Shown one piece after another: positions 6,393 to 56,599 of a stretch of DNA of 64,000 nucleotides. The stretch's first letter is position 1, and each line of letters opens with the position of its first letter. The stretch lies in the NCBI RefSeq assembly GCF_003286915.1, contig NZ_QMFY01000001.1, positions 1 to 64,000 on the forward strand, read 5' to 3'. A model generated the notes under the pieces. The model was not told the DNA's origin. It saw only the letters and a program-made list of their open reading frames with translations, and did no database searches. Source of the stretch: Pseudochryseolinea flava. GTDB taxonomy: Bacteria; Bacteroidota; Bacteroidia; Cytophagales; Cyclobacteriaceae. Both the position numbers and the translations under genes were made by a program.

Positions 6393-6436
6393 CTGATCTA
6401 AGTCATAACGGGGGCGGCACTTTCGATCTAGATTTG
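6393..6436 (+). promoter_or_regulatory. Crp/Fnr-type site plus -7 box, TonB-receptor operon
   Basis: The palindrome CTGATCTAAGTCAT (6393-6406) fits the N-TGA-N6-TCA-N pattern seen at six other places in this window. A perfect Bacteroidota -7 element TAGATTTG lies at 6429-6436, its first base 29.5 nt from the palindrome centre. The predicted transcription start falls at about 6441, on the GTG start codon, so the message would be leaderless or nearly so. Confidence 0.65.
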
Positions 6437-6440
6437 ACAT

Positions 6441-6821
6441 GTGAAGAAAGTCATCTCATTTGCGCTTATCGTATTAATGTCTATCCAGAGCATTTACCAG
6501 CTTGGCGTAATTGGGTACTTCCAAGTCAACAAGACATACATCGCAGAAGTGCTTTGCATCAACAAGGACAAGCCACTTTTGAGCTGCCACGGAAAATGTT
6601 TTCTGAAACGAAATTTAAACGAGCGCGACAAGACCGACACAGCGCGCGCACTAGGTAAAAACAAAGTTGAAATTCCGACTTTTATAGTAACAGAAGCGTG
6701 CACGTTGTTATTGCGCTGTGCGACCTCATACGTTACAAATTCAACGTATACAACGATCTACGCGTTCACCTACACACCATTCACTTTTCATCCACCATGC
6801 TGCCCGTTGAATAAAGTTTAA
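6441..6821 (+). CDS. Small membrane-anchored protein with C-x-x-x-C motif
   Basis: A 126-aa protein that begins with GTG and has an N-terminal hydrophobic segment (KKVISFALIVLMSIQSIYQL). It then carries the signature INKDKPLLSCHGKCFLKR, in which Cys-His-Gly-Lys-Cys could bind a metal, and a C-terminal HPPCCP. I know this type only as small hypothetical proteins encoded just before TonB receptors in Bacteroidota. It starts an apparent operon with the TonB receptor and the BNR-type lipoprotein (gaps 79 and -4 bases). The GTG start is supported by the signal-like N-terminus and by the promoter position. A metal, perhaps copper, handling role is inference. Confidence 0.75.
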   Translation: MKKVISFALIVLMSIQSIYQLGVIGYFQVNKTYIAEVLCINKDKPLLSCHGKCFLKRNLNERDKTDTARALGKNKVEIPTFIVTEACTLLLRCATSYVTNSTYTTIYAFTYTPFTFHPPCCPLNKV

Positions 6822-6900
6822 TCGTCATTCAAACTATTCACGGCCATACGGCAAGTCTTCCGCGTGAAGACATGAACGCCCATGGCCAAAATTCAACACC

Positions 6901-9282
6901 ATGAAAAGTATATTTCCATTCCTTCTGTTTCTTACCATTCTTTATAGCGCTGCACTTTGTCAGAACATCTGCAAAGGAAAAATATTTGACAGCGAGACCA
7001 ACGAACCGCTCGTCGGTGCCGCTGTTATAATCGCCGGCACACCATTGGGCAACGTCACTGATCTTGATGGGGTGTTTCTAATTGATGCGCCTACGCCTTT
7101 CGATTCCATTGTCGTCTCCTACCTTGGCTATGAGCGAAAAACGATTTTCGTATCGGGAAGAGAAATCATAGTTGCCTTACAGTCATCCACCAACAACCTT
7201 CAGCAAATCGTTGTTACTGCAAATCGTGAGGCATCGCTGCGAACGGAATCGCCTGTAGCCATTAGCAAAATATCAGCTGCAACGATCAACGACACAAAAC
7301 CTATTCTCCTTACGGAATTGCTCAACAAAGTTCCTGGCGTTGTGATGCTAAACTATAATAATGAACAGCATGCTATGTCTATTCGACAACCGATGGGCAC
7401 CTCGTCTTACTTCCTTTATCTTGAAGACGGGCTACCGGTGCGCCCTATGGGCATCTTCAATCATAACGCGTTAATTGAGATGAACATCTTGGGTATTTCA
7501 AACATTGAGGTGGTGAAAGGCCCTGCCTCGTCGTTGTATGGTCCTGAGGCTGTGGGTGGCGCCATTAACTTCATTACAAGAAAACCGTCCGCAGTTCCTA
7601 CTTTCCAAATCGGCGTTGCCGGCGATGCATGGGGATATAAAAGAATTCAATATGGTGCGGGTGGAGTGATTGGTAAAAAATTAGGCGTGCACATTAGTGG
7701 ATTCGAAGCGAACCAACGCAACGCATGGCAAACTTATTCTGACTACAAAAAATCTTCCGTGAATTTACGCGTTGACTATTCCCTCTCAAAACGCACAAAG
7801 CTTAGCGGCGCATTTTCGGGAAACGAGTATTATTCAGATATGGCTGGCAGTGTCGATAGTTTAGCATTCTACAACCGTGAATATTCAAGCACGACTGACT
7901 TCACGTATCGCAACGTGCATTCGCAGCGAATACGTTTTTCCATCAACCATCAATGGAACGATGGTCAGGAAACATTGCTTACGGTTGCCTATCGTGATAA
8001 TTACATAGAACAAAATCCAAACTATGCTATTCGCTGGACAAGTGGAAGTGAAACAGCTTCGGGAGAACGAAATCGGAATTCGTTCTACAGCCGCGTCGCG
8101 CTCGTGCAGCACAGTGTAAAGTTTAACTTTCTTGATTCAAAACTATTAGCGGGAGGAAGCTTCGACTACTCACCCACAACATATTGGGCATATAAAATCG
8201 ATATGGCTGCGCAACTGCGCCCCGATGGAAAATCTGTTGAACGTTATCGCATCCTGCAAGAGCAACCAGACCAGTTCCTATCAAACTATCAAGCCGATCT
8301 CAGCAATTACGCCTTGTATTCACAATTCGAAGCAAGCCTTCATAGCAGAATACGTGTTACCCTTGGGGTTCGCTACGATAGGATGGCCTTCGATTATCTT
8401 AATCGGCTTGAAGCGAGTACGGGTAAAAAGTCATTTGAACAAGTTACACCCAAGATCGGTGCGACATTCGATTTACTACGCGACAAAGGTTTATACGTAA
8501 ACTATAGCCAAGGTTTTTCACCACCGGGACTCACCTCTATCTTCAGAAAGAAACCGGGCATGTCTGGTGCGACTTCCGAGTTCTACTACAATCTTGAGCC
8601 GGCACGGTTCAACAACATTGAGATAGGCGGATGGGGCGCATTCTTAGATAGCAAAGTGTATGTAGATCTAGCGGTTTATCAAATGATAGGACACAAAGAG
8701 TTGCTTAATATTCGACAGACAGATAACACGACCGATTATCAAAGTGCCGGGAAGACATTGCACCGTGGCATTGAATATGGATTTACGTTTAAGCCTACAC
8801 CGGAATTGTTTATCCGTTTCGGTGGCACCAATGCGATACACCGTTTCGAAGATTTTACGCTCAGTGCCAGAACTTCAGACCAAACAAAAAATGTAGACGG
8901 CAACGAAATGCCACAGTCGCCGCGATGGATCGCCAATAGCGAAGTCACCTACAAACCTAATTATGTCGACGGTTTTAGTGTTTCGATTGAATGGCAGCGT
9001 ATCGGAAGTTGGTTTCAAGATCAAACCAACAACGTGAAATATGATGACAAAGGGCTGCTTGGATTTCGCGGCGTGAGCTATCTAAATCTTCGCATGGGAT
9101 ACGAAGTAAAGGGCTTCGAGTTTTTCACCAATGTGATAAACATTACGGATGAACTTTATGCAAATGCTGCCACAAGAGGAAATGGAGTACACGACAGAAC
9201 AACTTTTACACCCGCCGCACCGCGAACATTTGTACTCGGACTTCAGTACACGTTTAAAGGGACACAAAAATCCGTACTATGA
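6901..9282 (+). CDS. TonB-dependent outer-membrane receptor (candidate copper receptor)
   Basis: A 793-aa protein. A Sec signal peptide (to about residue 21) is followed by a carboxypeptidase-regulatory-like domain (about 25-100; GKIFDSETNEPLVGAAVIIAG), a plug domain (about 115-225; ETPVAISKI-like segment, EVVKGPASSLYGPEAVGGAI), and a 22-strand beta-barrel ending in a C-terminal aromatic segment (TFVLGLQYTF). It imports a ligand across the outer membrane with TonB energy. The ligand is not evident from the protein. It shares a predicted Crp/Fnr-type promoter with the nos genes and is followed, with a 4-bp overlap, by a Cys-rich lipoprotein. This makes copper supply for N2O reductase a plausible role, comparable with OprC/NosA. 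An iron chelate or B12 receptor remains possible, the latter because a B12-dependent reductase lies close by. Confidence 0.9.
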   Translation: MKSIFPFLLFLTILYSAALCQNICKGKIFDSETNEPLVGAAVIIAGTPLGNVTDLDGVFLIDAPTPFDSIVVSYLGYERKTIFVSGREIIVALQSSTNNLQQIVVTANREASLRTESPVAISKISAATINDTKPILLTELLNKVPGVVMLNYNNEQHAMSIRQPMGTSSYFLYLEDGLPVRPMGIFNHNALIEMNILGISNIEVVKGPASSLYGPEAVGGAINFITRKPSAVPTFQIGVAGDAWGYKRIQYGAGGVIGKKLGVHISGFEANQRNAWQTYSDYKKSSVNLRVDYSLSKRTKLSGAFSGNEYYSDMAGSVDSLAFYNREYSSTTDFTYRNVHSQRIRFSINHQWNDGQETLLTVAYRDNYIEQNPNYAIRWTSGSETASGERNRNSFYSRVALVQHSVKFNFLDSKLLAGGSFDYSPTTYWAYKIDMAAQLRPDGKSVERYRILQEQPDQFLSNYQADLSNYALYSQFEASLHSRIRVTLGVRYDRMAFDYLNRLEASTGKKSFEQVTPKIGATFDLLRDKGLYVNYSQGFSPPGLTSIFRKKPGMSGATSEFYYNLEPARFNNIEIGGWGAFLDSKVYVDLAVYQMIGHKELLNIRQTDNTTDYQSAGKTLHRGIEYGFTFKPTPELFIRFGGTNAIHRFEDFTLSARTSDQTKNVDGNEMPQSPRWIANSEVTYKPNYVDGFSVSIEWQRIGSWFQDQTNNVKYDDKGLLGFRGVSYLNLRMGYEVKGFEFFTNVINITDELYANAATRGNGVHDRTTFTPAAPRTFVLGLQYTFKGTQKSVL

Positions 9283-10481
9283 AAATGATTCGTCTTCTTG
9301 CATTGTCTGCTCTTTTTATCGCGATCTTTGTTCGGTGCGACAATACACAGCGTGAGATACAAATTTGTTCCGCAAATGCCGAATCTGTTTATCTGACACA
9401 CGACAACCTCGACAATCCGGTTGTTGCATGGACGGAAAAAAATAATGGACAACTGCATTTCACTTTTTCTATTTCCCAGGATGATGGTAGTTCGTTCGTT
9501 CAAAAAGCATCGATATTGTTAGGTTCATCTGTGGCAACGCATGCAGAAGGAATGCCTAAAGTTGCGTTCAAAAGAGACGGCACCATCCTGGTAGCATATG
9601 AAAAGAAAATCCCCACAGCGACGAACAAATATGCCGGGTCAATTCACTACAGAACTTCGGAAGACGACGGCAGGACATGGTCTACAGAAAAGACGATCCA
9701 TCGCGACACCACTTCAGGCAGAAGTAGATCGTACTTTGACATCGAAGTGCTTCCCGATGGAGAAATTGGTGCAGCATGGCTCGACATCAAACCACGGCAC
9801 GGAAAAGGCGGGAGAATCGTACTGTTCTCAAAAACAGATGCAACCAATTCTTTTTCAAATGAAATCCTCATTGATTCATCAGCATGTCAATGTTGCAGGA
9901 TTGATGTTTACACCGACGAGAACAAAAAAATCTACGTTGCTTATCGGGGATTGCGTAGCGGAAAAATGGATAAGCAAATTCGCGATATGATGGTGGCGAC
10001 ATCAGCGACAGATGGCACAAAATTCTCGCAGCCCATCAACATCAGCGCCGATCAATGGAACATCGATGGCTGTCCTCACACCGGACCAAGTTTGTGCAGC
10101 AACAAAGCGGGGCTGTTTACTATGTGGTATACTGAAGGTAACGGCAGCGGTTTGTATTATGCACATAAAGCTAGTGACGAAGACAATTTTTTTCCAAGGG
10201 AGCTTGTCTCGCGCGCTGGTCACCATCCTCAGGTAAGTTCGAACGGTGATGTGATCGCCATGCTTTGGGAGGAAAACATGACCACAGACGGAAGCACAGC
10301 TACAACGATTCATTGTCGATTGATCAAGGATGGAATAGACATCGAAAAGCGTGTATTAACGCCACGAAGTGCAAATTCCATCGCGCCGGTCGTCACCCAT
10401 ACGAAAGATGGTTTTCTCGTCGCTTGCCTGATGGAAAACGAGAATGGCGTAGCCGTGTATGCTATGAACCTTAAGCTGTAG
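9279..10481 (+). CDS. BNR/sialidase-fold lipoprotein with Cys motifs
   Basis: A 400-aa protein that starts inside the stop of the TonB receptor gene (ATGA overlap), so it is translationally coupled. The N-terminus is a signal peptide with Cys20 as probable lipid anchor (ALFIAIFVRC; Arg at -1 is unusual). The body shows Asp-box-like repeats (SQDDGSSF, SEDDGRTWS) of a beta-propeller, as in BNR/sialidase proteins. However, it has conserved-looking Cys and His motifs CQCCRIDVY and DGCPHTGPSLC, and HH in RAGHHPQV, which are more like a metal site than a sialidase active site. It is therefore not called a sialidase. A surface or periplasmic metal-binding partner of the receptor is inferred. Confidence 0.85.
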   Translation: MKMIRLLALSALFIAIFVRCDNTQREIQICSANAESVYLTHDNLDNPVVAWTEKNNGQLHFTFSISQDDGSSFVQKASILLGSSVATHAEGMPKVAFKRDGTILVAYEKKIPTATNKYAGSIHYRTSEDDGRTWSTEKTIHRDTTSGRSRSYFDIEVLPDGEIGAAWLDIKPRHGKGGRIVLFSKTDATNSFSNEILIDSSACQCCRIDVYTDENKKIYVAYRGLRSGKMDKQIRDMMVATSATDGTKFSQPINISADQWNIDGCPHTGPSLCSNKAGLFTMWYTEGNGSGLYYAHKASDEDNFFPRELVSRAGHHPQVSSNGDVIAMLWEENMTTDGSTATTIHCRLIKDGIDIEKRVLTPRSANSIAPVVTHTKDGFLVACLMENENGVAVYAMNLKL

Positions 10482-10510: not shown

Positions 10511-10561
10511 TGTGGATATGATCGCGATCATACCACAACTTTCGTTGCGCACATAGCTTTG
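10511..10561 (+). promoter_or_regulatory. Crp/Fnr-type operator and -7 box of scdA
   Basis: The 14-bp perfect palindrome ATGATCGCGATCAT (10518-10531) sits in a longer near-perfect palindrome (10511-10537, TGTGG..CCACA arms, one extra base on the left). A perfect -7 element TAGCTTTG follows at 10554-10561, 29.5 nt from the centre to its first base. A transcription start near 10566 puts the site at -41.5, the class II activator position. The sequence 10559-10572 also reads as an exact Fnr-type TTGAT-N4-ATCAA, but it lies on the start site. Confidence 0.75.
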
Positions 10562-10578
10562 ATAAAAATCAAAAAATT

Positions 10579-11322
10579 ATGGGCACATATTTGAATAACA
10601 CATTGGAGGGAAACCTACAGACGGTTGCCCAGCTTGCCATTTCACATCCTGGCGCGTTAGCTGTATTCACGAAATACAATATCGACTACTGCTGTGGTGG
10701 AAACCGAAGCTTGGAAGACGCTTGCAGAAGGATCGGCTTAGCGCCTGAAAAAATAAAAGCTGAGATCATTCAACAATCACAAGGGGAGATTAACGATGCG
10801 GTTCATCCGCAGCATTGGCGATCTTCATTCCTGGCAGACTATATCATTGAAAACCATCATCACTACGTAAAAAGAGCGATACCAGAAATTCAAGCATTCC
10901 TCGACAAAGTTTGTGATGCACATGGCAATGACTGCCTGGCGCTGTTACAGATACGCGAACATTTTCTTGATCTATCAGAAGATTTAACGAGCCACATGAA
11001 AAAGGAAGAGTTAGTGCTTTTTCCAGCAATCAAGAGACTCGAAGCACAACAGCACTTGGATCATCCGCTTGCAGATTCCATTCAGGCACCGATCGAAGCC
11101 ATGGAGCATGACCATGTTGCCGCAGGAGAACTGATCAAGCAGATCAGAACATTGTCGAACAACTATACACCTCCTGACTTTGCTTGTCCAACATTTAAAA
11201 TTACATATCAAAAGCTACATGAATTCGACAACGACTTGATGAAGCACGTGCATCTTGAAAACAATATTTTATTTGCGCGCTACAAAGAAAAGGCTACGCT
11301 TGGAGGAAGCTGTTCACTTTAA
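10579..11322 (+). CDS. scdA: Iron-sulfur cluster repair di-iron protein (RIC)
   Basis: A 247-aa cytoplasmic protein of the ScdA/YtfE family, which repairs Fe-S clusters damaged by nitric oxide or oxidation with a di-iron centre. Residues 1-65 are the ScdA N-terminal domain with the paired cysteines in NIDYCCGGNRSLEDAC. Residues about 85-240 are a hemerythrin-like four-helix bundle, with histidines in ENHHHYVKR, REHFLDL, HMKKEE, EHDHV and HVHLENNILF as iron ligands. Its length is that of the family. It is followed by the ribonucleotide reductase gene 30 bases later and is preceded by a strong Crp/Fnr-type site, which fits induction under low oxygen or NO. Confidence 0.95.
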   Translation: MGTYLNNTLEGNLQTVAQLAISHPGALAVFTKYNIDYCCGGNRSLEDACRRIGLAPEKIKAEIIQQSQGEINDAVHPQHWRSSFLADYIIENHHHYVKRAIPEIQAFLDKVCDAHGNDCLALLQIREHFLDLSEDLTSHMKKEELVLFPAIKRLEAQQHLDHPLADSIQAPIEAMEHDHVAAGELIKQIRTLSNNYTPPDFACPTFKITYQKLHEFDNDLMKHVHLENNILFARYKEKATLGGSCSL

Positions 11323-13265: not shown

Positions 13266-13862
13266 ATGTTTCCTGCAAAGACACTCGAAAAATATCATGC
13301 AAAGCTCGTACAGCTAGGCAAAGATCAAGTTCTATTTCATGAAGGAGATAAAGCCATAGACTATTTTCAAGTCGAGGAAGGTTCAGTCAAGATGTTTATA
13401 TCTAGTAACGATGGACAGGAATTCATTCAAGGAATTTTTACTGCTGGCGAAAGTTTTGGCGAGCCAGCTTTGATTGGAAAATTCCCCTACCCCGGCAGCG
13501 TATCGGCTATTGAAAAAACCAAAGTATGGAAACTACCCGGCGATTACTTTCTTCAAATGCTTCGGGAGAATTTTGACCTGCATTTAAAAATGGATCAGGT
13601 CTTGTGTCAGCGATTAAAATATAAATCAATGGTGCTTTCGGAAATTTCTTCCTACGAGCCGGAACACCGCATTCGTACGCTACTCAAATACTATAAAAGT
13701 AAAAAAGCACTATCAGGCACCGGTGAAAAAATAATCGTTCCTTATACGCGTCAACAACTTGCCGACATGAGCGGGCTTCGGGTAGAGACAGTCATTCGAA
13801 CAGTAAAGAAGATGGAAAAAGAAGGAAAGCTTTCGCTTGAGGGACACAAAATCATGTTTTAA
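13266..13862 (+). CDS. Crp/Fnr-family transcriptional regulator
   Basis: A 198-aa protein. Residues about 10-125 form a cyclic-nucleotide-binding-like sensor domain (GKDQVLFHEGDKAIDYFQVEEG; FGEPALIG), then a dimerisation helix, then an HTH_Crp winged helix (about 145-198) with the recognition helix LRVETVIRTVKKM. The Glu and Arg of E-T-V-I-R are those that contact the TGA half-site in Crp and Fnr. Only one Cys is present, so an Fnr-type Fe-S cluster is excluded; a heme/NO sensor like DNR or HcpR would fit. The gene has a TGA-N6-TCA site in its own promoter, and the same site precedes nos, scdA, fasciclin and other genes. It probably governs the N-oxide regulon. Its stop overlaps that of the convergent gene by the shared TTAA. 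Confidence 0.92.
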   Translation: MFPAKTLEKYHAKLVQLGKDQVLFHEGDKAIDYFQVEEGSVKMFISSNDGQEFIQGIFTAGESFGEPALIGKFPYPGSVSAIEKTKVWKLPGDYFLQMLRENFDLHLKMDQVLCQRLKYKSMVLSEISSYEPEHRIRTLLKYYKSKKALSGTGEKIIVPYTRQQLADMSGLRVETVIRTVKKMEKEGKLSLEGHKIMF

Positions 13863-14311: not shown

Positions 14312-16183
14312 TTACGCGCTGAGATTGATTTTGCTTTCCATTGCTTCGCGCAACACCGCCAACTCCCCTTCGCACATAAGAAGTTCTTCCGTAAATGTAG
14401 CCGACGAAATGTGATCAGACAATGAATGGTAATAGGCTATGCCGGCAGAAAGTTGAGCGACAAATGTTTGTATTTCCTTCCGCCACTTCGTGTCCTCCAT
14501 ATCATTTGAAAGTATTTGATCGCGGACGTAATCAAGGTTTAACTTCAACTCTTTGATAAACATGTGGGGTCGCGCCGGATCGGTGATATCCGTTCTGCCG
14601 TAGATATGATCAGTCATTTCCCGCAAGGAAACCACTTTGTTGAAATACGCGATATTGGGTCCAGGACAGATCGTGACTGCCTTCAGGTTCTTTATCGGCG
14701 GAAGATCATACGTTACAATCGCAGCATTGCTAAGTCCGATGCAAAGACATTCCTTACTCACAATTTCCGCATGCTGCTTGTCATAATCCGATGATGACAG
14801 GGAAAGGCTTTTTAACGCGGCAATTTTCTTCTGCTGATAAACCGTCGATGCTGTACAGATCGGATCCTTTGTAAATTCCGTATTCGACACAAGGTGTTTC
14901 TCGGTACAAGGACTGCCAGGCTTTCCCTTCTTAACTCTCGCCATTTTTTCACGCTCAGAGCTTGTTCCTTTAAGGTAGTTGAAACGAATACCCAGTGGTG
15001 AGTTTTTACTAAGTATAATATCGCTTTCGAGCGCACTGGATAATAAATTCAAAGTTTCTTCATCAACAGTTGTCGCTTCCGGACAAAGCAAAAAGGGTGT
15101 TCCCCATCCAGTACTTTGCACATCATAGCGCGAGGCGAGAAACATTGCTTCGTGGTAGGTTCCTATGCCACCCTGCACGGTAATGGCAAGAGGATGCGGC
15201 TTGTCAAAAACCTCGAGACCTTTTGTTTTTAGTGCAGCAACATACAACGCATGTAATGAGGTGATGAGTTCTTCACGCTTTAATTTGAACTCTTCCAGAA
15301 TCGGACCAAGTAATGAACCGTCTGTGGCGAATGCGTGTCCTCCACAGTTAAGTCCCGATTCTATCCTGAATTCACTTACCCAGATACCTTTCTTCGCTAA
15401 ATATTTTCCCTGAATAAAGGCAGAACGATAATCGCTCACTTTGATTACAATCTTCTTGTCGAATGTAGCCCATGATTTTGCATTGAACGCTGGTAATGTT
15501 TCGAGATAGTTAAACAAACGGGGATTCAATCCAGCAGAGAAAATTACGGATGAGTCAACGAGATCGCTATTGGCGTAACCCCGAAGTGCTGCAACGGCAT
15601 CCGATCCATCGGTAAGTTGATGACCTGATCGATCATAATTGTTTTTGTCGACCTTCGTCATGATGTTGACGTCGATGCAACCTGGCTTGATCTGACTTGT
15701 CAGGAATTTTACCAGCGTATCGCGTTCGATTTTATCTTTTGCTTGCAACAGGCGTTCATACGAAAGTCTTAGGATGCTATCACCCGGGAGCATCTCAAAA
15801 TATTTAGTGAGCTCGCTACCGACACAAAATGTCGAGTGTCGTAAGTCTTCGAACTGCTTTTTGACGATGCGATTGAGTAGATTCAAATAGTCGGTAATTC
15901 TTTTAGCGCGGTAGTCTTGCTCCTTTGGCGTAATGGGAACATATTGTTCGTCGTACTTCTCGCAGTAATATTTCCGCATCAACTCCACCAACTTATCTTC
16001 GATAATCGATACTACTGAATTAATACCATACCGTGCTACTTTAACAGGCGTATCGATGGTGTAAGCTAATCCCATAACAGGGATGTGGAATGTATGAATT
16101 GGAGTTGTCGTGTGCATAGTGCTGGGATTCAAAGCACCGGCAATTACGATGTTAATAACATCACCATCTATGATTAAAGTCAT
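14312..16183 (-). CDS. Large conserved protein, possible FMN/TIM-barrel enzyme
   Basis: A 623-aa protein that I do not recognise with certainty. Several stretches look like enzyme active-site segments: FHIPVMGLAYTIDTPVKVAR near the N-terminus, ESGLNCGGHAFATDGSLLGP in the middle, AITVQGGIGTYHEAMFL and STGWGTPFLLCPEATTVDEE. The GGIGT and TGWGTPF elements resemble FMN-dependent TIM barrels such as nitronate monooxygenase or glutamate-synthase-type enzymes. The C-terminal part has several Cys (PCTEKHLV, DPICTAS, KECLCIGLSNAAI) that could hold a cluster. No export signal is seen. An internal start at 16117 (MHTTTPIHTF) is equally likely. It lies between globin and DGC-like genes in the N-oxide island, which hints at a redox role under anoxia. 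Confidence 0.75.
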   Translation of the reverse strand: MTLIIDGDVINIVIAGALNPSTMHTTTPIHTFHIPVMGLAYTIDTPVKVARYGINSVVSIIEDKLVELMRKYYCEKYDEQYVPITPKEQDYRAKRITDYLNLLNRIVKKQFEDLRHSTFCVGSELTKYFEMLPGDSILRLSYERLLQAKDKIERDTLVKFLTSQIKPGCIDVNIMTKVDKNNYDRSGHQLTDGSDAVAALRGYANSDLVDSSVIFSAGLNPRLFNYLETLPAFNAKSWATFDKKIVIKVSDYRSAFIQGKYLAKKGIWVSEFRIESGLNCGGHAFATDGSLLGPILEEFKLKREELITSLHALYVAALKTKGLEVFDKPHPLAITVQGGIGTYHEAMFLASRYDVQSTGWGTPFLLCPEATTVDEETLNLLSSALESDIILSKNSPLGIRFNYLKGTSSEREKMARVKKGKPGSPCTEKHLVSNTEFTKDPICTASTVYQQKKIAALKSLSLSSSDYDKQHAEIVSKECLCIGLSNAAIVTYDLPPIKNLKAVTICPGPNIAYFNKVVSLREMTDHIYGRTDITDPARPHMFIKELKLNLDYVRDQILSNDMEDTKWRKEIQTFVAQLSAGIAYYHSLSDHISSATFTEELLMCEGELAVLREAMESKINLSA

Positions 16184-17372: not shown

Positions 17373-18140
17373 CTACAAATCTTTTTTACTGAATATTCTT
17401 AGCGCAATAAAAAACGGAATGATCACCCACAGAAAAAGAATCAACGTAGAGAAGATAATTCCAAATGAGCTTCCGAAAAATTGTCTGTAAAACGCGCCTG
17501 TGTATCCCATCAACGCAGATATATCCAGTTGAAGCAACATTATTACCCTTGCCAGATCGACAGGATTGAGCGATATCAAGCCCAACGTAATTTTCTCTAA
17601 TGGGTAGTCGGCGAAGGCATATACAAACCACAAAAGGAATCCATCATAGATGAGCGAAAAGTAAAACCAGAACAGCAATGCGATTCCAATTGCTTTTGCT
17701 TTATCGCGCGTGAGTACAGCGGCTAAAAACGCCAAAGAGACAAACACCAGTGTGAGAATGATTCCGCAAAATAGAAGTGACATGCCCGTTGCGCTTACAC
17801 CGTATATCCCCAGCGGAATGCCTACACCCACGGCGAATGCCATACAAAGAGACATGGCAACCGCCAAGTACTCTCCGATGAAAATTACTCGTCGATTGAT
17901 AGGCTGTGCAAGCATGAGTTCGATAAACTCATAAGAATTGTAAAAGTGAATGGTGGTGAAGACAATGCTCACCAAAGGTACAACCATCAGCACCACGTTC
18001 AGCAAACTCATCACTACTTTGTTGGGATCGCTATCGAGCTGAAACATGGCGAATGTGCTGACCAGCAACAGCGCAGTATAGAATATGATGAACCGTGTGC
18101 GGAGTATATCGTAGAAGACATATTTGATTATCCTATTCAT
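17373..18140 (-). CDS. nosY: Copper-site maturation ABC transporter permease NosY
   Basis: A 255-aa inner-membrane protein with six hydrophobic segments of the ABC-2 permease type (start MNRIIKYVFYDILRTRFIIFY; segment VMSLLNVVLMVVPLVSIVF; last span near residues 225-250). With NosF it forms the transporter that delivers a sulfur or other component for CuZ assembly in nitrous oxide reductase (family knowledge). The start is 3 bases after the nosF stop, and it is the last gene of the nos operon. Length and context fit NosY well. Confidence 0.9.
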   Translation of the reverse strand: MNRIIKYVFYDILRTRFIIFYTALLLVSTFAMFQLDSDPNKVVMSLLNVVLMVVPLVSIVFTTIHFYNSYEFIELMLAQPINRRVIFIGEYLAVAMSLCMAFAVGVGIPLGIYGVSATGMSLLFCGIILTLVFVSLAFLAAVLTRDKAKAIGIALLFWFYFSLIYDGFLLWFVYAFADYPLEKITLGLISLNPVDLARVIMLLQLDISALMGYTGAFYRQFFGSSFGIIFSTLILFLWVIIPFFIALRIFSKKDL

Positions 18141-18143
18141 AAG

Positions 18144-18872
18144 CTATCGATTAACAGAGTCAATTAATTGCTTTTGTCCAATCATGGTGGCTATCGCCTT
18201 ACCTAACTTCTTCTCTTGTGTTTCTTCCTTTAAGGTTTGAATTGTGTTGTTGTAGTGGACTTGGCCCTCGTAGATGTACACCATGTCGGAGGTAAGTTCG
18301 TCGAGATCACTCAGGATGTGGGAAGAAATGATCAACAGTTTACCGCGATGCTTTTCTTCGAGTATTTTTTCTTTCAATATCTCCACCGAAATCGGATCAA
18401 GACCTGCTGTAGGTTCATCAAGAATCAACACAGGCGGATTAAAAAGAAATGCAAGTGCGGCGCTCACTTTCTGCCGTGTGCCACCGGAAAGCGCGTGCAT
18501 TCGCTTGTCAAACATTTTGTAAAGCTTGAAACCTTCAATAATACTATCGTCAAGGACTTCTGCGTTTTTTCGAATATTCTTCATCATATCTATCAATTGA
18601 CCGATAGTCATGTTCTCGGGGTATCGTCCTATCTGGGGCATGTAGCCGATTTTCTCGCGATACATCCAGTCCTTGGCTATACTCTTACCTTCAAAAACAA
18701 TTTCACCAGAGGATGGAACAACGAGCCCCAGTATACTTTTGATCAAGGTGGTTTTACCCGAACCATTCGGGCCCACCAATGCATACGATCGCCCCATGCT
18801 CAGATCAAGGTCTACTTGCTTAAGAACATGAAGCTTTCCAAAATTCTTATTGACTTTTTGTATTGAGATCAT
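18144..18872 (-). CDS. nosF: Copper-site maturation ABC ATPase NosF
   Basis: A 242-aa ABC ATPase. Walker A is GPNGSGKTTL (about 34-43), the signature LSGGTRQKVS (about 127-136), Walker B VLILDEPTAGLDP (about 148-160) and the switch His in SSH (about 182). It powers NosY in N2O reductase maturation. It begins inside the 3' end of nosD (26-bp overlap) and is followed by nosY after 3 bases, so the three are translationally coupled. Confidence 0.93.
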   Translation of the reverse strand: MISIQKVNKNFGKLHVLKQVDLDLSMGRSYALVGPNGSGKTTLIKSILGLVVPSSGEIVFEGKSIAKDWMYREKIGYMPQIGRYPENMTIGQLIDMMKNIRKNAEVLDDSIIEGFKLYKMFDKRMHALSGGTRQKVSAALAFLFNPPVLILDEPTAGLDPISVEILKEKILEEKHRGKLLIISSHILSDLDELTSDMVYIYEGQVHYNNTIQTLKEETQEKKLGKAIATMIGQKQLIDSVNR

Positions 18873-20097
18873 AGGGCTTCATTGCAGGTGATTCGTCTTT
18901 TAAATTTTGCGGCGTCATGACAGGAATGGCTTTCTCTGCTTTATCCATTAACAGCACAAGAAAACTTCGCCATAACAAGACCGCTGCAGGCATCTGCTCA
19001 ACAACCATCGAATACATGCTCACAGGGTGATGAGGAATATCGCCGACGCTATCCTTGTTCAAATCATACCCTTCGTATTTATCCCAGTAGTTTCCGTTAA
19101 CACTATTGAGCACTAAACTTCCGTTGGTTGCCAGATCAAAGGTATTTGATGAAAAATTATTGCGTTTGAAATTATTATCGTCGCAGCTGGCCTGAAGCTT
19201 GATCGCGTAACCATTTTCGGAGAAAGTGTTATTGTCAAATTGTATTCTACTCGAGCCTTCCATCAAAATACCAACAGAATTTTGCAAGAATCGATTTCCT
19301 GAAACAAAACTATCGCGAATGTCTTTAAGCAGTAAACCGTAGGCGGAAGATCCCCAATTGTGTTCAAAAGTATTGTTGATCATCTTCACACCAGTTGTGT
19401 ACATCACCGCTACGCCCGCCCCGTTTTCTACAAAAGTGTTGTTTCGATATTCATTATTATGGGAAAACATAAAATGAAGCCCATAACGCATATTGCCTTT
19501 ACTATAATTTCCAGTGATCAATGAATTGGTGACGAACTCGAAATAAATACCATCACGATGACCTTTCACGATGTTGTTATCGACTGTGATATGATCGCAT
19601 TTCCATAGATGTATACCATTTCCAATTTGATGCTCGGCTTTTGCATCGGACTGCAGCTGATTACCTACAATCCAGGAATGCGAGGAGTTCGAAAAATGTA
19701 TTGCGAAGAAAGTGTTTACGAAGCGGTTGTTTGTGATCCTTAGCCATTTTGAGTCAAGCACTTTTATGGCTGCAAGATCATTGATACTTGCAATACCGGT
19801 GTTGATAAATTTCAATCCCGATATCGTTACATAATGCGCATGAATCGTAAAAATCTCCACCTTATGATCACCATCAAGTACTGGAAAATTTTCACCAATA
19901 AGTGTAAGACTCTTTTCAATAATAATATTGCCCTCCTTATAAGTGCCAGAGGTGATGTACAGCGTATCTCCTGGTTTGGCCTGGGAGATCGCTTGTTTAA
20001 TGCTTTTAATTTTCCCCTGTTTACTAACCGTTATCGTACTGCCGTAAGCAGTTATGGCCACGAAACAAGACAGGAAAATAATTTTTAGAGCTTTCAT
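18847..20097 (-). CDS. nosD: Periplasmic copper-maturation protein NosD
   Basis: A 416-aa exported right-handed beta-helix protein needed for CuZ assembly of N2O reductase (family knowledge). A Sec signal (MKALKIIFLSCFVAITAYG) is followed by many parallel beta-helix coils with N-N-x-F/I ladders (ITNNRFVNTFFAIHFSNS, KMINNTFEHN, IQFDNNTFSENG), then NGNYWDKYEGYDLNKDSVGD, a typical NosD element, and a hydrophobic segment near 365-385. The ATG at 20097 was chosen because it gives a clean signal peptide; an ATG seven codons upstream exists. It lies between the NosL fusion and nosF. Confidence 0.92.
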   Translation of the reverse strand: MKALKIIFLSCFVAITAYGSTITVSKQGKIKSIKQAISQAKPGDTLYITSGTYKEGNIIIEKSLTLIGENFPVLDGDHKVEIFTIHAHYVTISGLKFINTGIASINDLAAIKVLDSKWLRITNNRFVNTFFAIHFSNSSHSWIVGNQLQSDAKAEHQIGNGIHLWKCDHITVDNNIVKGHRDGIYFEFVTNSLITGNYSKGNMRYGLHFMFSHNNEYRNNTFVENGAGVAVMYTTGVKMINNTFEHNWGSSAYGLLLKDIRDSFVSGNRFLQNSVGILMEGSSRIQFDNNTFSENGYAIKLQASCDDNNFKRNNFSSNTFDLATNGSLVLNSVNGNYWDKYEGYDLNKDSVGDIPHHPVSMYSMVVEQMPAAVLLWRSFLVLLMDKAEKAIPVMTPQNLKDESPAMKPYDLNTKSQ

Positions 20098-20145
20098 GCA
20101 TTGATGACCAGACTTCATGTGAGCGATAGAACGCCATTGAAGTTG

Positions 20146-21162
20146 TCATTTATATTGTGTCTGTAATTCGCCCCAACTCATTTGAATACCTTTCCATTCG
20201 GCATTCATCTTTTGGAGCGCATCACTCGATTCAAAGGCGGCAACCTTACTCGCCATCGGACTTTTAATCGCTTCTGCCTTAATGTATAGCGCGTTTTTGG
20301 CGTCAATTAGTTTTTCCGGTTTAGCAAAATCGACAATCAATAAATTTTTTACATTTTCAATTGAGACCTCATTACTGTTGTAGAAACTTAGCATGCAATT
20401 CACGTCATCGAATTTGTAAATCTTGCCCTTCGTTGTTACCAACTCAGCGCCAAACTTATGATCCATTAAAGTCATCTTACATGTATGACATGCATCCTTT
20501 CCATAGACCAGTGGTTCAGGCTCAACGGAGCACGCCATCATGCACCATGCCATCATCACGATCATGGCTACTGTAGTTTTCTTTGTTTCCATTCTTGATT
20601 TCATTATTTCTGCAGCAAGGGTAATCATTGTTAGCAGTCCGGCAATCAAAAAAATCCACCCACCAACATCAGGACCAGAGTATGCTGTAAAGTTGAGAAG
20701 TTGTTTTGTGCCAATGAGTGGCGGCTGGTACGACATACCTGGCACGACAATAGGTGCTGTCGGATCGAGGTTGTGGCCATAATCATAGCCCCATCTATAA
20801 AAATCAACGAGTGCAACGATGCCACAGGCAACAATCAAGGTGGCGAATGCAATAAGCATATATCGGCGATTGACAATAACTGTTAAAATACCCATGGCGA
20901 TTACACCACCCACAATGTATATCATATATTTAAACTCAGGAAACATGCTGACCTCGATATGCTTCATACCGATATAGTGATTGAGTGCACTAATAATTTT
21001 AACATCTCCCGTCAAATTGTCTATCCATATTTTCATATCCAAACCCTCCGGATACTGCGGCGCCCACATGAGAATTTGCCATAGCGGAACGTAGTAAGCC
21101 GACACCATTGATAACGCAGCTAACAGAATGACAACACGCGATATTGGTCTGAGCTTTTTCAT
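20146..21162 (-). CDS. nosL: Membrane protein fused to NosL copper chaperone domain
   Basis: A 338-aa two-part protein. Residues 1-190 hold four hydrophobic spans (at about 10-28, 78-96, 101-120 and 164-185) with an extracytoplasmic loop rich in Trp and Tyr. Residues 195-335 are a NosL domain: a lipoprotein-like segment MMAWCMMACS, then the copper-binding YGKDACHTCKMTLMDHKFGAEL and YKFDDVNCMLSF (each shown in full within its limit only in part: DACHTCKM, FDDVNCM). NosL delivers Cu(I) to N2O reductase. Proteobacterial NosL is a free lipoprotein of about 180 residues, so the membrane fusion is the notable feature; such fusions occur in clade II nos clusters. It is preceded by an intercistronic hairpin after nosZ. 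Confidence 0.88.
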   Translation of the reverse strand: MKKLRPISRVVILLAALSMVSAYYVPLWQILMWAPQYPEGLDMKIWIDNLTGDVKIISALNHYIGMKHIEVSMFPEFKYMIYIVGGVIAMGILTVIVNRRYMLIAFATLIVACGIVALVDFYRWGYDYGHNLDPTAPIVVPGMSYQPPLIGTKQLLNFTAYSGPDVGGWIFLIAGLLTMITLAAEIMKSRMETKKTTVAMIVMMAWCMMACSVEPEPLVYGKDACHTCKMTLMDHKFGAELVTTKGKIYKFDDVNCMLSFYNSNEVSIENVKNLLIVDFAKPEKLIDAKNALYIKAEAIKSPMASKVAAFESSDALQKMNAEWKGIQMSWGELQTQYK

Positions 21163-21179
21163 TGTATTATTTTTTTAGA

Positions 21180-21207
21180 AGCCCTATCCCATCTCGGGGA
21201 TAGGGCT
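21180..21207 (-). other. Intercistronic hairpin between nosZ and nosL
   Basis: A perfect 11-bp inverted repeat AGCCCTATCCC / GGGATAGGGCT with a 6-nt loop. On the nos-coding strand it is followed by TCTAAAAAA, not by a U-run, so it is not an intrinsic terminator. A role in protecting the 3' end of nosZ mRNA, or in reducing downstream expression, is inferred. Confidence 0.7.
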
Positions 21208-21234
21208 ATCAACCTGCAAACTATGAATTTGAAT

Positions 21235-23220
21235 CTATTGACCAGCCCCGGTGATCTGATCTTCGATTTTACCGGTTGAGTATTTTATTTCAACATTATT
21301 GTTCGGTGCAGACACGCGTGCATATCCTTGCATCTCCTGATGTAGTGCTGAACAGAAGTCGGTACAGTAGAAAGGGAACACACCAACACGATCGGCTTTC
21401 CATTTCAATGTTTGTGTTTCTCCAGGCATGATTAAGATCTCGGCATTGTTAGCACCTTTGATAGCAAAGCCGTGCGGAACATCCCAATCTTGTTCTAGGT
21501 TCGTAACGTGGAAATATACATCGTCACCTTGCTTAATACCTTCTATGTTGTCGGGTGTTAAGTGCGACCGGATCGCTGTCATATATACGTGTACTTCGTT
21601 TCCTTTTCTTTCAACTTTAGTTTTGCCTTCGCCAAGCGCGGCATAAGGGTGCTTGTTGTCTTCGAGTCTGTATATTTTTTGTGACTTTGGCATGAGCAAT
21701 TCTGCGGGTATTGCTTCAGCATAGTGAGGCTCACCGGTAGTCGGAAAGTCAAGAATCAATTTCATTTTTTCACCGCTGATATCGTACAATTGGGCCGACT
21801 GCGTAAGCTCGGGACCTGTAGGCAAGTAGCGATCTTTTGTAATCTTGTTATATGCGATTACATATTTGCCATGCGGCTTCTTTGTTGGTCCACCAGGCAC
21901 GCAAAGGTGTCCGATGGAGTAATAAGTAGGTGCACGATCAAGTACTTTCAATTCTTTTACATTCCACTTTACGATTTCAGAAGAAACGAACATCGATGTG
22001 TATGCATTTCCGTTCGCATCGAATTCCGTATGCAATGGACCGAGCCCAGGTTTTTGAACCTCACCATAGAGGGCTGATTCATACTTTACAACAGGGATAC
22101 CCGCGAAATCACCTTCGAAAGATTTGTCGGCAATAGCTTTCTGCAATTTTGAGAAGGAGAACACCGGGATAAGCGCTGCAAGCTTGCCACTGCCGACGAT
22201 GTATTCACCTGACGGATCTACATCACAGCCGTGGGGTGACTTCGGACATGGGATAAAGTAAACGATATCTTTAAGTTCAGCCGGATCGAGTTGCATCACT
22301 TCTTCCAAAATCTCAGAAGACGACATATGCGTTGACTCATTTAACACATTGTGTGCATATTTCGACTTCACTGTCTTTCCTTTTCCTTGCTTCAGGTACT
22401 CTTCCGCCTTCTTCCAGTTAACAGCCATGATAAAATCTTTGTCTTTTTGTGACGCATTAACTTCGAGCAAAGTGTATGCTTGTTCGGTGTTGTAGGTTGA
22501 GAAGAAGAACCATCCATGAGAAGGACCTTTGCCTGCACGTGCAAGGTCGAAGCTTACACCAGGTGTTACAAGTTGGAAGGCGATATTCATATGTCCGGAA
22601 GTATCGACCTTTATAAAACTTACTGTTCCTTTGAAATTCTTTTTGAATGAGCTGATTGGAACATCGGTATTGTCGCCAATCGGAACACTGAAGCGTGTAC
22701 TTGCCACAACGTACTCCGTATTTTCCGTAATGTATGGTGACGAGTGATTGCCTCCGCTATTGGGCAACTCAAGGATTTCGACAGTCTTAAAAGTTTTTAA
22801 GTCGATGCGCGCAACACGCGGTGTGTTGTTACCATTGGCAAATGCCCAACGTCCATCATGTTCGCCATTTGTTGTCGACAATGAAATATGGTGCAAGTCA
22901 TCCCAGGGCACAAAGCCGTTGGCAGTATTTAACATGGGCTTGCTTTCTTCGCTATAGCCGTAACCGTTTTCAGGGAAAGTGGCGAAAACAGGAATGATCT
23001 TGAACAACCGCCCTGAAGGAATTCCGTACACGCCGATCTGACCATTAAATCCGCCAGACACAATGTTGTAAAATTCATCATATTTTCCGGGCGCAACATA
23101 CGCTTTGCTAGCAGCGTCTCCAGTGATAGCTTCACTTGGACCAGATGGCTTACAACTGTATATGGTGAAGGCAGCGAGAATGCCAGCCATGCCCCATACA
23201 AATTTATTGAGCGTTTTCAT
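21235..23220 (-). CDS. nosZ: Nitrous oxide reductase, clade II lipoprotein type
   Basis: A 661-aa copper enzyme that reduces N2O to N2 outside the cytoplasm. The N-terminus is a Sec/lipoprotein signal (LAAFTIYSC, Cys23), not a twin-arginine signal, which marks clade II NosZ. The seven-bladed propeller (about 50-520) carries the CuZ histidines in DDLHHISL, NGEHDGRW, GGNHSS, SPHGCD, GPLHTEFD, IGHLCVPGG and KPHGKYV. The C-terminal cupredoxin domain has the CuA motif YCTDFCSALHQEMQGY (near residue 625). Length is as expected. It lies between a cytochrome c gene (30 bases upstream) and nosL, in one operon under a Crp/Fnr-type promoter. Confidence 0.97.
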   Translation of the reverse strand: MKTLNKFVWGMAGILAAFTIYSCKPSGPSEAITGDAASKAYVAPGKYDEFYNIVSGGFNGQIGVYGIPSGRLFKIIPVFATFPENGYGYSEESKPMLNTANGFVPWDDLHHISLSTTNGEHDGRWAFANGNNTPRVARIDLKTFKTVEILELPNSGGNHSSPYITENTEYVVASTRFSVPIGDNTDVPISSFKKNFKGTVSFIKVDTSGHMNIAFQLVTPGVSFDLARAGKGPSHGWFFFSTYNTEQAYTLLEVNASQKDKDFIMAVNWKKAEEYLKQGKGKTVKSKYAHNVLNESTHMSSSEILEEVMQLDPAELKDIVYFIPCPKSPHGCDVDPSGEYIVGSGKLAALIPVFSFSKLQKAIADKSFEGDFAGIPVVKYESALYGEVQKPGLGPLHTEFDANGNAYTSMFVSSEIVKWNVKELKVLDRAPTYYSIGHLCVPGGPTKKPHGKYVIAYNKITKDRYLPTGPELTQSAQLYDISGEKMKLILDFPTTGEPHYAEAIPAELLMPKSQKIYRLEDNKHPYAALGEGKTKVERKGNEVHVYMTAIRSHLTPDNIEGIKQGDDVYFHVTNLEQDWDVPHGFAIKGANNAEILIMPGETQTLKWKADRVGVFPFYCTDFCSALHQEMQGYARVSAPNNNVEIKYSTGKIEDQITGAGQ

Positions 23221-23250
23221 TTTGTTTTTATTAATTGAAGAGATGTAAAT

Positions 23251-23733
23251 CTATTTTTCGCCGTCATTCTGCCTCATGAACTCCAAGATGTCGCGAGAGT
23301 CACCGACACTCACATTCTGATTCGGCATCCGAGTCAAACAGAGTTCGAGAAGTTTTTGTGCTTCGGCATCTTGATCAAGCATCACATCGACGTTGGTGAT
23401 CATATTCATAATCCATTCTGGCTTTCTTCGCTGTGTAACGCCTTTCCATCCGGGTCCTACTACCCGTTGATCATCTAGTTTATGACATGCAGCACATTTC
23501 ATTTCGTAAATGGCCAGCCCTCTCCCAATTCGATCTTGCTCAAGCGGCGTATTCAACGTAACCTCCTTAATCTCCCCGATACCCTTACCCTCATCTACTT
23601 TCTTTGGTGTTTCAGCTACTTCATATTCATCGGAACCATTACTAGAATTTTGATCTTTTGGTTTTTCGTTACCACATGCTGCCAGCATCGCCAACAGCAT
23701 GACTACAGGAAAAAGCTTTTTCATAGTTTTCAA
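23251..23733 (-). CDS. Mono-heme cytochrome c lipoprotein of the nos operon
   Basis: A 160-aa lipoprotein (MLAACG, Cys20) with an acidic linker (about 22-65) and one c-type heme domain: CAACH at residues 80-84 and the axial Met in TRMPNQNVS. It is likely the electron donor to NosZ, or links the quinol pool to it, as proposed for cytochromes encoded beside clade II nosZ. It is the first gene of the nos operon, 30 bases before nosZ. Confidence 0.93.
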   Translation of the reverse strand: MKTMKKLFPVVMLLAMLAACGNEKPKDQNSSNGSDEYEVAETPKKVDEGKGIGEIKEVTLNTPLEQDRIGRGLAIYEMKCAACHKLDDQRVVGPGWKGVTQRRKPEWIMNMITNVDVMLDQDAEAQKLLELCLTRMPNQNVSVGDSRDILEFMRQNDGEK

Positions 23734-23777: not shown

Positions 23778-23823
23778 CTAAAGTAGTCCGAGAACAAGCG
23801 ACGCCTTTATGACTTTAGTCATA
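23778..23823 (-). promoter_or_regulatory. Crp/Fnr-type site plus -7 box, nos operon
   Basis: A strongly palindromic TATGACTTTAGTCATA (23808-23823; core ATGACTTTAGTCAT). On the minus strand a -7-like box TACTTTAG runs from 23785 to 23778, 30.5 nt from the palindrome centre, one base longer than at the other sites. The leader before the cytochrome c start is about 40 nt. The rest of the 268-bp gap to 24002 shows no gene. Confidence 0.65.
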
Positions 23824-27779: not shown

Positions 27780-27823
27780 GTGACTGAAGTCATAATTTAG
27801 CGAAAGAAGGTCAAGTACCTTCG
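27780..27823 (+). promoter_or_regulatory. Crp/Fnr-type site plus -7 box, PRTase operon
   Basis: GTGACTGAAGTCAT (27780-27793) lies 29.5 nt, centre to first base, before TACCTTCG (27816-27823), one mismatch from TAnnTTTG. The ATG follows 18 nt later. Confidence 0.65.
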
Positions 27824-27841
27824 CATCATAACACACATTTT

Positions 27842-28492
27842 ATGATACTCGATCACACGTTTGTTGCGCACGATCGGCGACACGCCGGAATGCAGTTGGC
27901 TGATAAACTTAGCGAATTCAAAAACAGTAATGCCATTGTTGTCGCCGTATCGCAAAGCGGTGCCGTAATCGGCTATTATATAGCCCAACAACTCGGGCTC
28001 CCATTCGAGGTTTGCCTTTGCAAAGCAATTGAACATCCCGCTAATCGACGACAGACACTCGGATCCATTAGCGCCGATGCCGTACTCATGCATAGTGACA
28101 GTTACGGTATACCGCGCGATTACATTCACCATCAGATTATCCTCAACCAAAGTATACTTAAATCACAACGGCAATTTTACCGCGTCGATCGAATGCTAGA
28201 CGTACGCGAGAGAAAAGTCATCCTCGTCGGTGAAACTTTCCTTACCATGGATTCACTCGCCGCATCACTTCATGAAATCCGTCGACAACGTCCTGAGAAA
28301 GTTGTTGTTGCTGCAGCTGCATGCACACCGGAAGTGGCTTCGGAACTCGCACGTTGTACAAACGACGTCACGTTCCTCGTGGTAGAACACAATATTAAAA
28401 CTGAAAAATTATATCACCAATATTCAACGATCGACGACAAGGCAGTAAAATATTTGTTGCGCATGGCCGCTGTTAAAATAAATTACAATTAA
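27842..28492 (+). CDS. Phosphoribosyltransferase-like protein
   Basis: A 216-aa protein of the type I PRTase fold, as in stand-alone 'phosphoribosyltransferase' stress proteins. An N-terminal segment is followed by IVVAVSQSGAVIGYYIAQQLG, a helix pair, and a region KVILVGETFLTMDSLAASL where PRTases have the acidic PRPP loop (usually DDG..TG); here the loop reads GETFLTMDS, so acids are reduced and catalytic activity is uncertain. It reads divergently from the CoA-transferase operon, has its own Crp/Fnr-type site, and is followed 14 bases later by a PNPOx-like gene in the same operon. Confidence 0.8.
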   Translation: MILDHTFVAHDRRHAGMQLADKLSEFKNSNAIVVAVSQSGAVIGYYIAQQLGLPFEVCLCKAIEHPANRRQTLGSISADAVLMHSDSYGIPRDYIHHQIILNQSILKSQRQFYRVDRMLDVRERKVILVGETFLTMDSLAASLHEIRRQRPEKVVVAAAACTPEVASELARCTNDVTFLVVEHNIKTEKLYHQYSTIDDKAVKYLLRMAAVKINYN

Positions 28493-28506: not shown

Positions 28507-28977
28507 ATGATTGGCGCATTAACAAATGAACAAATCGAACACGTACTTCGCAGTGGTTTGATTGGACGAATAGGCTGTTCCAATGGAGCAAATGTCTACG
28601 TTGTCCCAGTCACGTATGTCTTTCACGACAAATACATTTACATCCATTCGCGTGAGGGATTAAAAGTTCAAATCATGAGAACGCATCCTCAAGTCTGCTT
28701 TGAAGTCGACAGTATTGAAGGCATGACAAACTGGAGATGTGTGATTGCGCATGGCACCTTTCAAGAATTGAAGAACGAACCCGATCGCACAGAAGCGCTG
28801 AACATCCTGAAAAATCGACTCGTGCCGTACCTTCTCAGTGAAACAATGCGACCTCAAGGATTCGATCATGCACCGAAGTCTATTGAGAAAGAGCGCCAGC
28901 CTATTGTGTACAGAATTCAGGTTACCGAAATGACGGGGCGCTTCGAAAAAAATGTGTACTCAGAAAAGCTATTGTAA
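28507..28977 (+). CDS. PNPOx-fold flavin-binding protein (NimA-like)
   Basis: A 156-aa protein of the pyridoxamine 5'-phosphate oxidase split-barrel fold. The pattern LTNEQIEHVLRSGLIGRIGC, then VYVVPVTYVFHDKYIYIHS and GLKVQIMRTHPQVCFEVD is that of small FMN- or heme-binding proteins in the Nim/HugZ-like group. Such proteins reduce nitro groups or bind heme or flavin; the exact reaction cannot be told. It forms an operon with the PRTase-like gene under an N-oxide-regulon-type promoter, so a redox stress role is likely. Confidence 0.88.
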   Translation: MIGALTNEQIEHVLRSGLIGRIGCSNGANVYVVPVTYVFHDKYIYIHSREGLKVQIMRTHPQVCFEVDSIEGMTNWRCVIAHGTFQELKNEPDRTEALNILKNRLVPYLLSETMRPQGFDHAPKSIEKERQPIVYRIQVTEMTGRFEKNVYSEKLL

Positions 28978-45346: not shown

Positions 45347-45370
45347 ATCTATCGCTGTTTATCTGGTCCA

Positions 45371-46480: not shown

Positions 46481-46514
46481 ATTTTGCTATTTTTCATCAT
46501 TAGTATTTCAATCA

Positions 46515-48293: not shown

Positions 48294-48320
48294 TGTATAA
48301 TTCCTATTTCGTGAAGGATT

Positions 48321-51197: not shown

Positions 51198-51313
51198 GTG
51201 GTATATTTTTTTGTCTAATAAGACATGTATCATCGTGAACATGTTGAATAATATTCAGCAGTAAGGTGATTCATATGTCTATTTTCTTGCTTGAAAATAT
51301 TTATGTCAGAGCG

Positions 51314-53257: not shown

Positions 53258-53266
53258 TGTCGTCAA

Positions 53267-56464: not shown

Positions 56465-56599
56465 GCTAAATGCTCTTTTAGGTTTTAAGTTTTTGGTAAA
56501 ATTTTATCGTGCTCATAGTGTTATGTATGCGTATTTCGTGTTGCCATATTGATCGTTGGTTAGGGTTGATCTGGTAGTAAGAAAATTTCATTTGAACTA

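Follow-up and report, generated by a model that had tools for sequence, protein, structure and literature searches.

CruR and CutF are exported proteins of small size; through their translation, copper is sensed and the genes that follow are controlled (PMC9426467, PMC9973294). In Bordetella pertussis, cruR heads a receptor operon, cruR-crtA(bfrG)-crpH, the third gene of which encodes a PepSY_TM protein (PMC12914433, PMC13038864). CruR was shown to arrest at its RAPP motif in vitro, and Bacteroidota were reported to lack RAPP/RGPP leaders of copper genes (PMC12992588). For pseudomonads, the TonB-type receptor OprC/NosA was proposed to supply copper, including that of the nitrous oxide (N2O) reductase (PMC8610252). 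Here, we analyzed a three-gene operon of Pseudochryseolinea flava (6.54 Mb assembly, 99% complete), named S-T-B after its small protein S, TonB-dependent receptor T, and lipoprotein B. It lies within positions 1-64,000 of contig NZ_QMFY01000001.1, the whole stretch being referred to as the window. An original prediction had described a candidate copper-acquisition operon wired to N2O reduction, composed of a CHGKC-motif small protein, a TonB receptor, and a Cys/His-rich BNR-fold lipoprotein, and the ORF (open reading frame) check and domain searches recovered the three co-directional genes with their domains:

6441..6821, plus strand: S, GTG start, 126 amino acids; predicted exported or membrane small protein with C39..C49xG51KC53 and FHPP at residues 116-119; candidate copper-sensing leader
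6555..6599, plus strand: Cys-motif codons of S, CINKDKPLLSCHGKC, taken from the sequence; columns invariant in the homologue alignment
6786..6797, plus strand: FHPP codons near the S C-terminus, from the homologue alignment
6842..6887, plus strand: stem-loop between S and T, -19 kcal/mol, z -2.4
6901..9282, plus strand: T, TonB-dependent receptor (Pfam), with invariant NEQHxMxxRQP, NHN, H621, H647, and M670
9279..10481, plus strand: B, BNR-fold lipoprotein (Pfam BNR_2), with CxCC ... DxWxxxxCPHxG

B overlaps T by 4 nucleotides (nt; ATGA) and is present as a single copy in the assembly, and T comprises CarbopepD_reg_2, Plug, and barrel domains (Pfam). Among the matches listed, the closest named relative is Chryseolinea sp. 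H1M3-3, with 57% identity for B and 71% for T.

The arrangement resembles cruR-crtA-crpH in that the first of three genes encodes a small, presumably exported protein with a Cys motif and with Pro-Pro at its C-terminus, and the second a TonB receptor; moreover, Bacteroidota have S-T-PepSY_TM forms, and this genome has an S-like-T-PepSY_TM form. It differs in its third gene, a Cys/His BNR lipoprotein, and in its transcription from a promoter of the nos type. Compared with CruR, S lacks a DUF2946 match, has CxGKC for CxxC and FHPP for RAPP, and separates the two motifs by about 66 rather than 45 residues. CutF of the Rhodobacter capsulatus cutFOG operon shares with S the small size, the predicted export, a Cys motif, a Pro-rich C-terminus, and the putative control of a copper gene, but it responds to the presence of copper by switching on copper detoxification, and its spacing and motif are different (PMC9973294). 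The CutF family survey of that paper counts Bacteroidota members and TonB-type neighbors (PMC9973294), and S may be among them. The literature searched held no description of an S-T-B operon in Bacteroidota, the member lists of the survey lying outside this search. T-B also recalls the BtuB-BtuG type of Bacteroidota, in which a beta-propeller lipoprotein accompanies a TonB receptor; in contrast, B is of the sialidase type with a Cys/His site, and no B12 riboswitch was found within positions 1-30000.

A two-part promoter shared with the nos operon

S-T-B and cytc-nosZ are both preceded by the site TGAYN4RTCA, followed after 23-24 nt by the Bacteroidota -7 box TAnnTTTG. The site before S reads TGATCTAAGTCATAA (6394), and its nos counterpart reads TGACTAAAGTCATAA (23807-23821, minus strand). 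The promoters and the genes concerned are as follows:

6394..6405, plus strand: Crp/Fnr-type site TGATCTAAGTCA upstream of S, an exact match and one of 6 genome-wide matches of TGAYNNNNGTCATAA
6429..6436, plus strand: -7 box TAGATTTG, 23 nt past the site and 4 nt ahead of the S GTG; near-leaderless start
23778..23821, minus strand: nos promoter TGACTAAAGTCA-24-TACTTTAG, from the pattern search
10519..10561, plus strand: promoter TGATCGCGATCA-23-TAGCTTTG upstream of ric/ytfE, from the pattern search
27781..27823, plus strand: promoter TGACTGAAGTCA-23-TACCTTCG upstream of 27842-28492, from the pattern search
17373..23733, minus strand: cytc-nosZ-nosB/L-nosD-nosF-nosY, from ORFs and a nosZ search
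10579..11322, plus strand: ric/ytfE/scdA, nitric oxide damage repair (TIGR03652, 222.7 bits)
13266..13862, plus strand: Crp/Fnr-family regulator (Pfam/NCBIfam match), candidate reader of the shared site

The 6.54 Mb contain only six matches of TGAYNNNNGTCATAA. Three of these are in the window: one precedes S, one precedes cytc-nosZ, and one is at 27781. The regulator site claimed to be common to the operon and nos was confirmed and accounts for two of the six, each followed by a -7 box. The remaining three matches, on other contigs, are inside ORFs and look like chance. When site and -7 box were combined, the pattern gave 14 genome matches (control pattern: 4), four of which fall into the window (S, ric, nos, 27781). 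The promoters at 10519-10561 and 27781-27823 and the Crp/Fnr gene at 13266-13862 had been omitted from the original prediction.

The same architecture was found in other genomes. With promoters taken from many genomes, the -7 box score peaked sharply at a gap of 23, with means of 4.0 (S) and 4.3 (nos, a set of 7 sites only) out of 6, compared to about 1-2.6 at other gaps. In several loci, S starts 4-6 nt past the -7 box, and therefore its mRNA may be leaderless there. The site stood ahead of S in 13 of 31 nosZ-positive but only 3 of 32 nosZ-negative genomes, where approximately 0.8 would be expected per group (Fisher p 0.003, an optimistic value, as related genomes such as three Pontibacter were treated as independent), while it preceded 4.5% and 3.3%, respectively, of the other genes of the same loci. 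Upstream of nos operons across Bacteroidota, the same site class was found 54 times in 45 regions, with 5.7 expected. It is likely that S-T-B is wired to the nitrogen-oxide regulator in this genome and in others. Regulation by Fur or a B12 riboswitch had been named as evidence against the original prediction, and neither was found: Fur boxes were not in excess at the operon loci of the genomes compared, and no Rfam riboswitch was present within 1-30000 of the window.

The names in the nos cluster follow the usual nos gene nomenclature and PMC9697520. ORF 20146-21162 is a NosL fused to an N-terminal membrane part; NosB-NosL fusions have already been described (PMC9697520). The region upstream of ric/ytfE (10519-10578) additionally contains a perfect TTGATAAAAATCAA at 10559, and a class II (B12-dependent) ribonucleotide reductase gene follows ric/ytfE at 11353. 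Behind the promoter at 27781, ORFs 27842-28492 and 28507-28977 appear by eye phosphoribosyltransferase-like and flavin-nucleotide-binding-like, and they are possibly further members of the nitrogen-oxide regulon.

Small protein S as a candidate leader

S has a hydrophobic N-terminal segment, which suggests its export, as well as the Cys motif CINKDKPLLSCHGKC, and it matches no Pfam/NCBIfam family above cut-off. All 71 S homologues carry Pro-Pro 1-7 residues before the stop codon, as FHPP in 44 of them and as FRPP, LQPP, ILPP, etc. in the others, at a distance of 63-72 residues from CxGKC. Among other proteins of the same loci, 2-4% have Pro-Pro within their last 14 residues. In an alignment of 31 sequences, the only invariant positions were C39, C49, G51, C53, P118, and P119, and the stretch between the Cys motif and Pro-Pro was mostly unconserved. 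Since the end prolines are invariant, while the spacer mostly varies in sequence and keeps a length of 63-72 residues, the pattern is the one expected for a pause motif plus spacer. S homologues head TonB-dependent receptor, MbnP, and OprC-like operons, and S came first in the modules examined.

A second module of this genome (contig C22:184537-188709; L213:3538-7709) consists of an S-like ORF, a T-like receptor (51% identical to T), and a PepSY_TM gene. Its S-like ORF has lost CxGKC but still ends with FQPPRV-stop, and because Pro-Pro survives the loss of the Cys motif, the Pro-Pro end appears to have a role of its own. No TGAYN4RTCA site was detected in the examined stretch of this module. 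In the original prediction, the CHGKC protein had been taken to be structural, whereas the Pro-Pro conserved beside the stop codon favors a copper-sensing leader. On balance, and by analogy, we lean towards S being such a leader, a Bacteroidota counterpart of CruR/CutF.

Copper partners and distribution among Bacteroidota

Of the loci examined, 11 had an SCO1/SenC gene, in several cases directly downstream of B, and in Larkinella an MbnP gene starts 13 nt after B. Further S homologues precede MbnP-MauG(-SCO) genes in Larkinella and Arsenicibacter, and in Lutibacter and a Flavobacterium metagenome-assembled genome, a second S is located upstream of a receptor matching the TonB-copper model TIGR01778 (123 and 266 bits, both under cut-off). 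Beside nos clusters, the cargo of S modules consists of a TonB-dependent receptor (L206), T-PepSY_TM (L207, L209), MbnP-MauG (L208), or OprC-like receptors (L210-L212) and is, as far as gene content can tell, interchangeable copper cargo. Taken together with the residues described below, this makes it likely that S-T-B imports copper. In L206 (10035-12830), nosZ-B-L-D-F-Y-orf139-S-TonB receptor form one co-directional array that is almost gapless up to S, and the receptor apparently sits inside the nos operon. At another locus (L011), a BNR protein distantly related to B, in which CxCC and GCPGTGP are found, is encoded without a receptor next to a gene resembling a metal P-type ATPase by eye.

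The description of B as Cys/His-rich was confirmed, as C203, C205, C206, C265, and H267 (CxCC and CPH, together with P266) are invariant in 30 homologues. Its AlphaFold2 model is all-beta with a mean pLDDT (predicted local distance difference test) of 90.8, and the best fold matches are sialidase/lyase-type folds. Across 25 sequences, NEQHxM, NHN, H621, H647, M670, and the plug HxM are invariant in T, and no Cys is. T resembles OprC/NosA as a TonB-type receptor proposed to supply copper (PMC8610252), but in sequence its plug shows HxM and apparently not the whole CxxxM-HxM site. The profile match to OprC chains reached only E about 0.8, and T was rejected as an OprC/NosA relative, so that the comparison drawn in the original prediction stands by analogy only. 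TIGR01778 was absent among the best 25 NCBIfam families listed for T. Against 9RVQ/9RVX, structures of the copper-chelate receptor CrtA, E was 3e-28 in a partial alignment with the region of the invariant His358 outside it. The nearest solved receptors by profile are PqqU/YncD (E 4e-44; PMC12124388), unlike which T has mostly lost the contacts to pyrroloquinoline quinone (PQQ) and is found in a copper gene context.

A profile search with B in GTDB genomes gave more than 580 relatives, and 80 were kept for gene context. Immediately upstream, nearly all of these 80 have T, and in most of them S is detectable as well. S-T-B is widespread in Bacteroidota, and the genera that carry it include Runella, Spirosoma, Larkinella, Pontibacter, Pedobacter, Chitinophaga, and Flavobacterium; in Pedobacter and Sphingobacterium, S and B are kept with a different receptor. 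S itself was found in 118 of 296 sampled Bacteroidota genomes. The co-occurrence with nosZ that the original prediction anticipated was an enrichment: nosZ was detected in 40 of 77 operon carriers, compared to 129 of 395 genomes of the class sample and 100 of 296 of the phylum sample, about a third at random (Fisher p about 0.001-0.003, without phylogeny correction). Of the 37 genomes having both an S module and nosZ, 8 have the two within 12 kb of each other, and in Runella the operon directly follows nosZ-B/L-D-F-Y-FAS1. The operon is over-represented and specifically wired in nosZ-positive genomes. Strict co-occurrence was rejected (40/77 carriers; 7/11 strong B carriers in the class sample with nosZ), and a predominance in genomes lacking nosZ, which would have counted against the original prediction, was nearly reached with 37 of 77 carriers. 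A B orthologue was present in only 7 of 129 nosZ-positive genomes of the class sample. Because about half of the carriers have no nosZ and few nosZ-positive genomes carry B, the operon is not dedicated to NosZ, and exclusive service of S-T-B to this enzyme is unlikely. Of the predicted copper-acquisition operon wired to N2O reduction, copper acquisition (SCO1, MbnP/MauG, TIGR01778-type receptors) and the nos-regulator wiring were thus retained, while dedication to N2O reduction was not.

Two further regions of the window should be mentioned. ORF 14312-16183 (623 amino acids, function not assigned) is matched at 49-50% identity by homologues close to S-T-B at two loci of Pedobacter (L075, L128), and the many genes of 43202-60457, among them glycosidase-like genes and SusC/SusD-like pairs, look by eye like a xylan utilization locus.

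Competing readings and the proposed model

S could instead be a structural periplasmic or membrane-anchored copper-binding protein that acts as a carrier or chaperone from T inward and not as a leader. Three conserved Cys, including CxGKC near the membrane segment, and the constant proximity of a transporter or copper-protein gene would fit this role, whereas the invariant Pro-Pro before the stop, the unconserved stretch of 63-72 residues, the C22 copy that ends in FQPPRV-stop without CxGKC, and the position of S at the head of the modules examined would not; we give it roughly a one-in-four standing. A non-copper ligand of T (PQQ, heme, cobalamin, or an iron siderophore), with the nos link reduced to co-regulation, appears still less probable. 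PqqU/YncD as the best solved match, the siderophore- or hemin-type NCBIfam models that score highest for T (all far under cut-off), and the B12-dependent ribonucleotide reductase gene nearby (11353) speak for it. However, of the six PQQ contacts in PqqU (Y99, Q121, K274, R304, R365, R536; PMC12124388), at most K274 is kept in T, judged by eye from the printed profile alignment, and the others are replaced by M/L, H188, N/D, T, and S/T, respectively. PQQ is disfavored as substrate accordingly, and the PqqU NCBIfam model gave 84.8 bits at a cut-off of 1200. The absence of an Rfam riboswitch within 1-30000 and of a Fur-box excess, and the recurrence of copper genes as partners, likewise argue against a non-copper ligand.

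That the operon is dedicated to NosZ maturation would agree with the co-regulation observed here, the nosZ enrichment among carriers (40/77 against 129/395), and the position directly behind nos in Runella, but it is already weakened by the distribution (37/77 carriers without detectable nosZ, 7/129 nosZ-positive genomes with a B orthologue), and we rate it as improbable. Lastly, the shared site might be a chance match and the operon unrelated to N2O reduction. Single-mismatch hexad pairs are indeed common (87 found, 68 expected), yet the exact site with a spaced -7 box is rare genome-wide, clustered in the window, and recurs in related operons of other nosZ-positive genomes, which leaves a coincidence very improbable.

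Several points weigh against the reading of S-T-B as a copper-import operon with S as its sensor. The copper case is built on guilt by association and residue conservation, and binding, transport, and arrest are putative. The best solved relatives of T by profile, PqqU/YncD, are no copper transporters. FHPP is not RAPP, and neither S nor five homologues matched DUF2946 at E <= 0.1. The assignment of regulator 13266-13862 as the probable reader of the site draws on family and location only, and the p-values of the site test are optimistic, as stated above. The structure between S and T was not exceptional (z -2.08, compared to -2.25 in control intergenic regions), and the attenuator stem-loop was dropped as evidence. 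A Rho-type C>G bubble at the S 3' end was strong versus controls (p 2e-26) but was reproduced by synonymous resampling (0.072 vs. 0.082); the amino-acid composition of S accounts for the bubble, which is therefore not independent evidence.

Nevertheless, we consider a copper-import operon S-T-B with two layers of control the probable reading as a whole, if only by a fair distance from even. In the first layer, the Crp/Fnr regulator, probably 13266-13862, would bind TGAYN4RTCA centered about 41 nt before the S start and activate S-T-B together with cytc-nosZ and ric; here the site is read from the sequence, and the regulator is presumed. Being activated together with these genes, the operon would be made during nitrogen-oxide respiration. 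In the second, conjectural layer, S would act as a nascent-chain copper sensor that is exported while being translated. CxGKC would reach the periplasm as the ribosome reaches FHPP, copper binding would alter the pause, and the altered pause would determine how far T-B is transcribed or translated, in the manner of CruR, where copper-free arrest keeps import on. A copper ion or chelate would then be imported by T in a TonB-dependent way, the candidate ligands being the plug motif H157-x-M159 and, in addition, H188. The beta-propeller-type lipoprotein B, which has a Cys3 plus Cys-Pro-His site, would take up copper at the outer membrane or pass it on there. In nosZ-positive genomes, the operon would have been recruited to the N2O regulon to meet the copper demand of NosZ, while in other genomes it presumably feeds oxidases.

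NosZ is the main biological N2O sink, and because it needs many copper atoms, N2O can escape from cells that are short of copper. Bacteroidota are a major clade II nosZ group, and outer-membrane copper uptake in this phylum is essentially undescribed in the literature searched. With this locus, a candidate receptor can be named for it, along with its partner lipoprotein and what is probably a copper sensor. If true, S would fill the reported gap of copper-related leaders in Bacteroidota (PMC12992588) with a different arrest-like motif. There is about an even chance that FHPP-stop proteins such as S form a Bacteroidota-wide class of copper-sensing arrest leaders missed by RAPP surveys, and that N2O lineages have repeatedly put import operons under the double control of a nitrogen-oxide Crp/Fnr promoter and a nascent-chain sensor.

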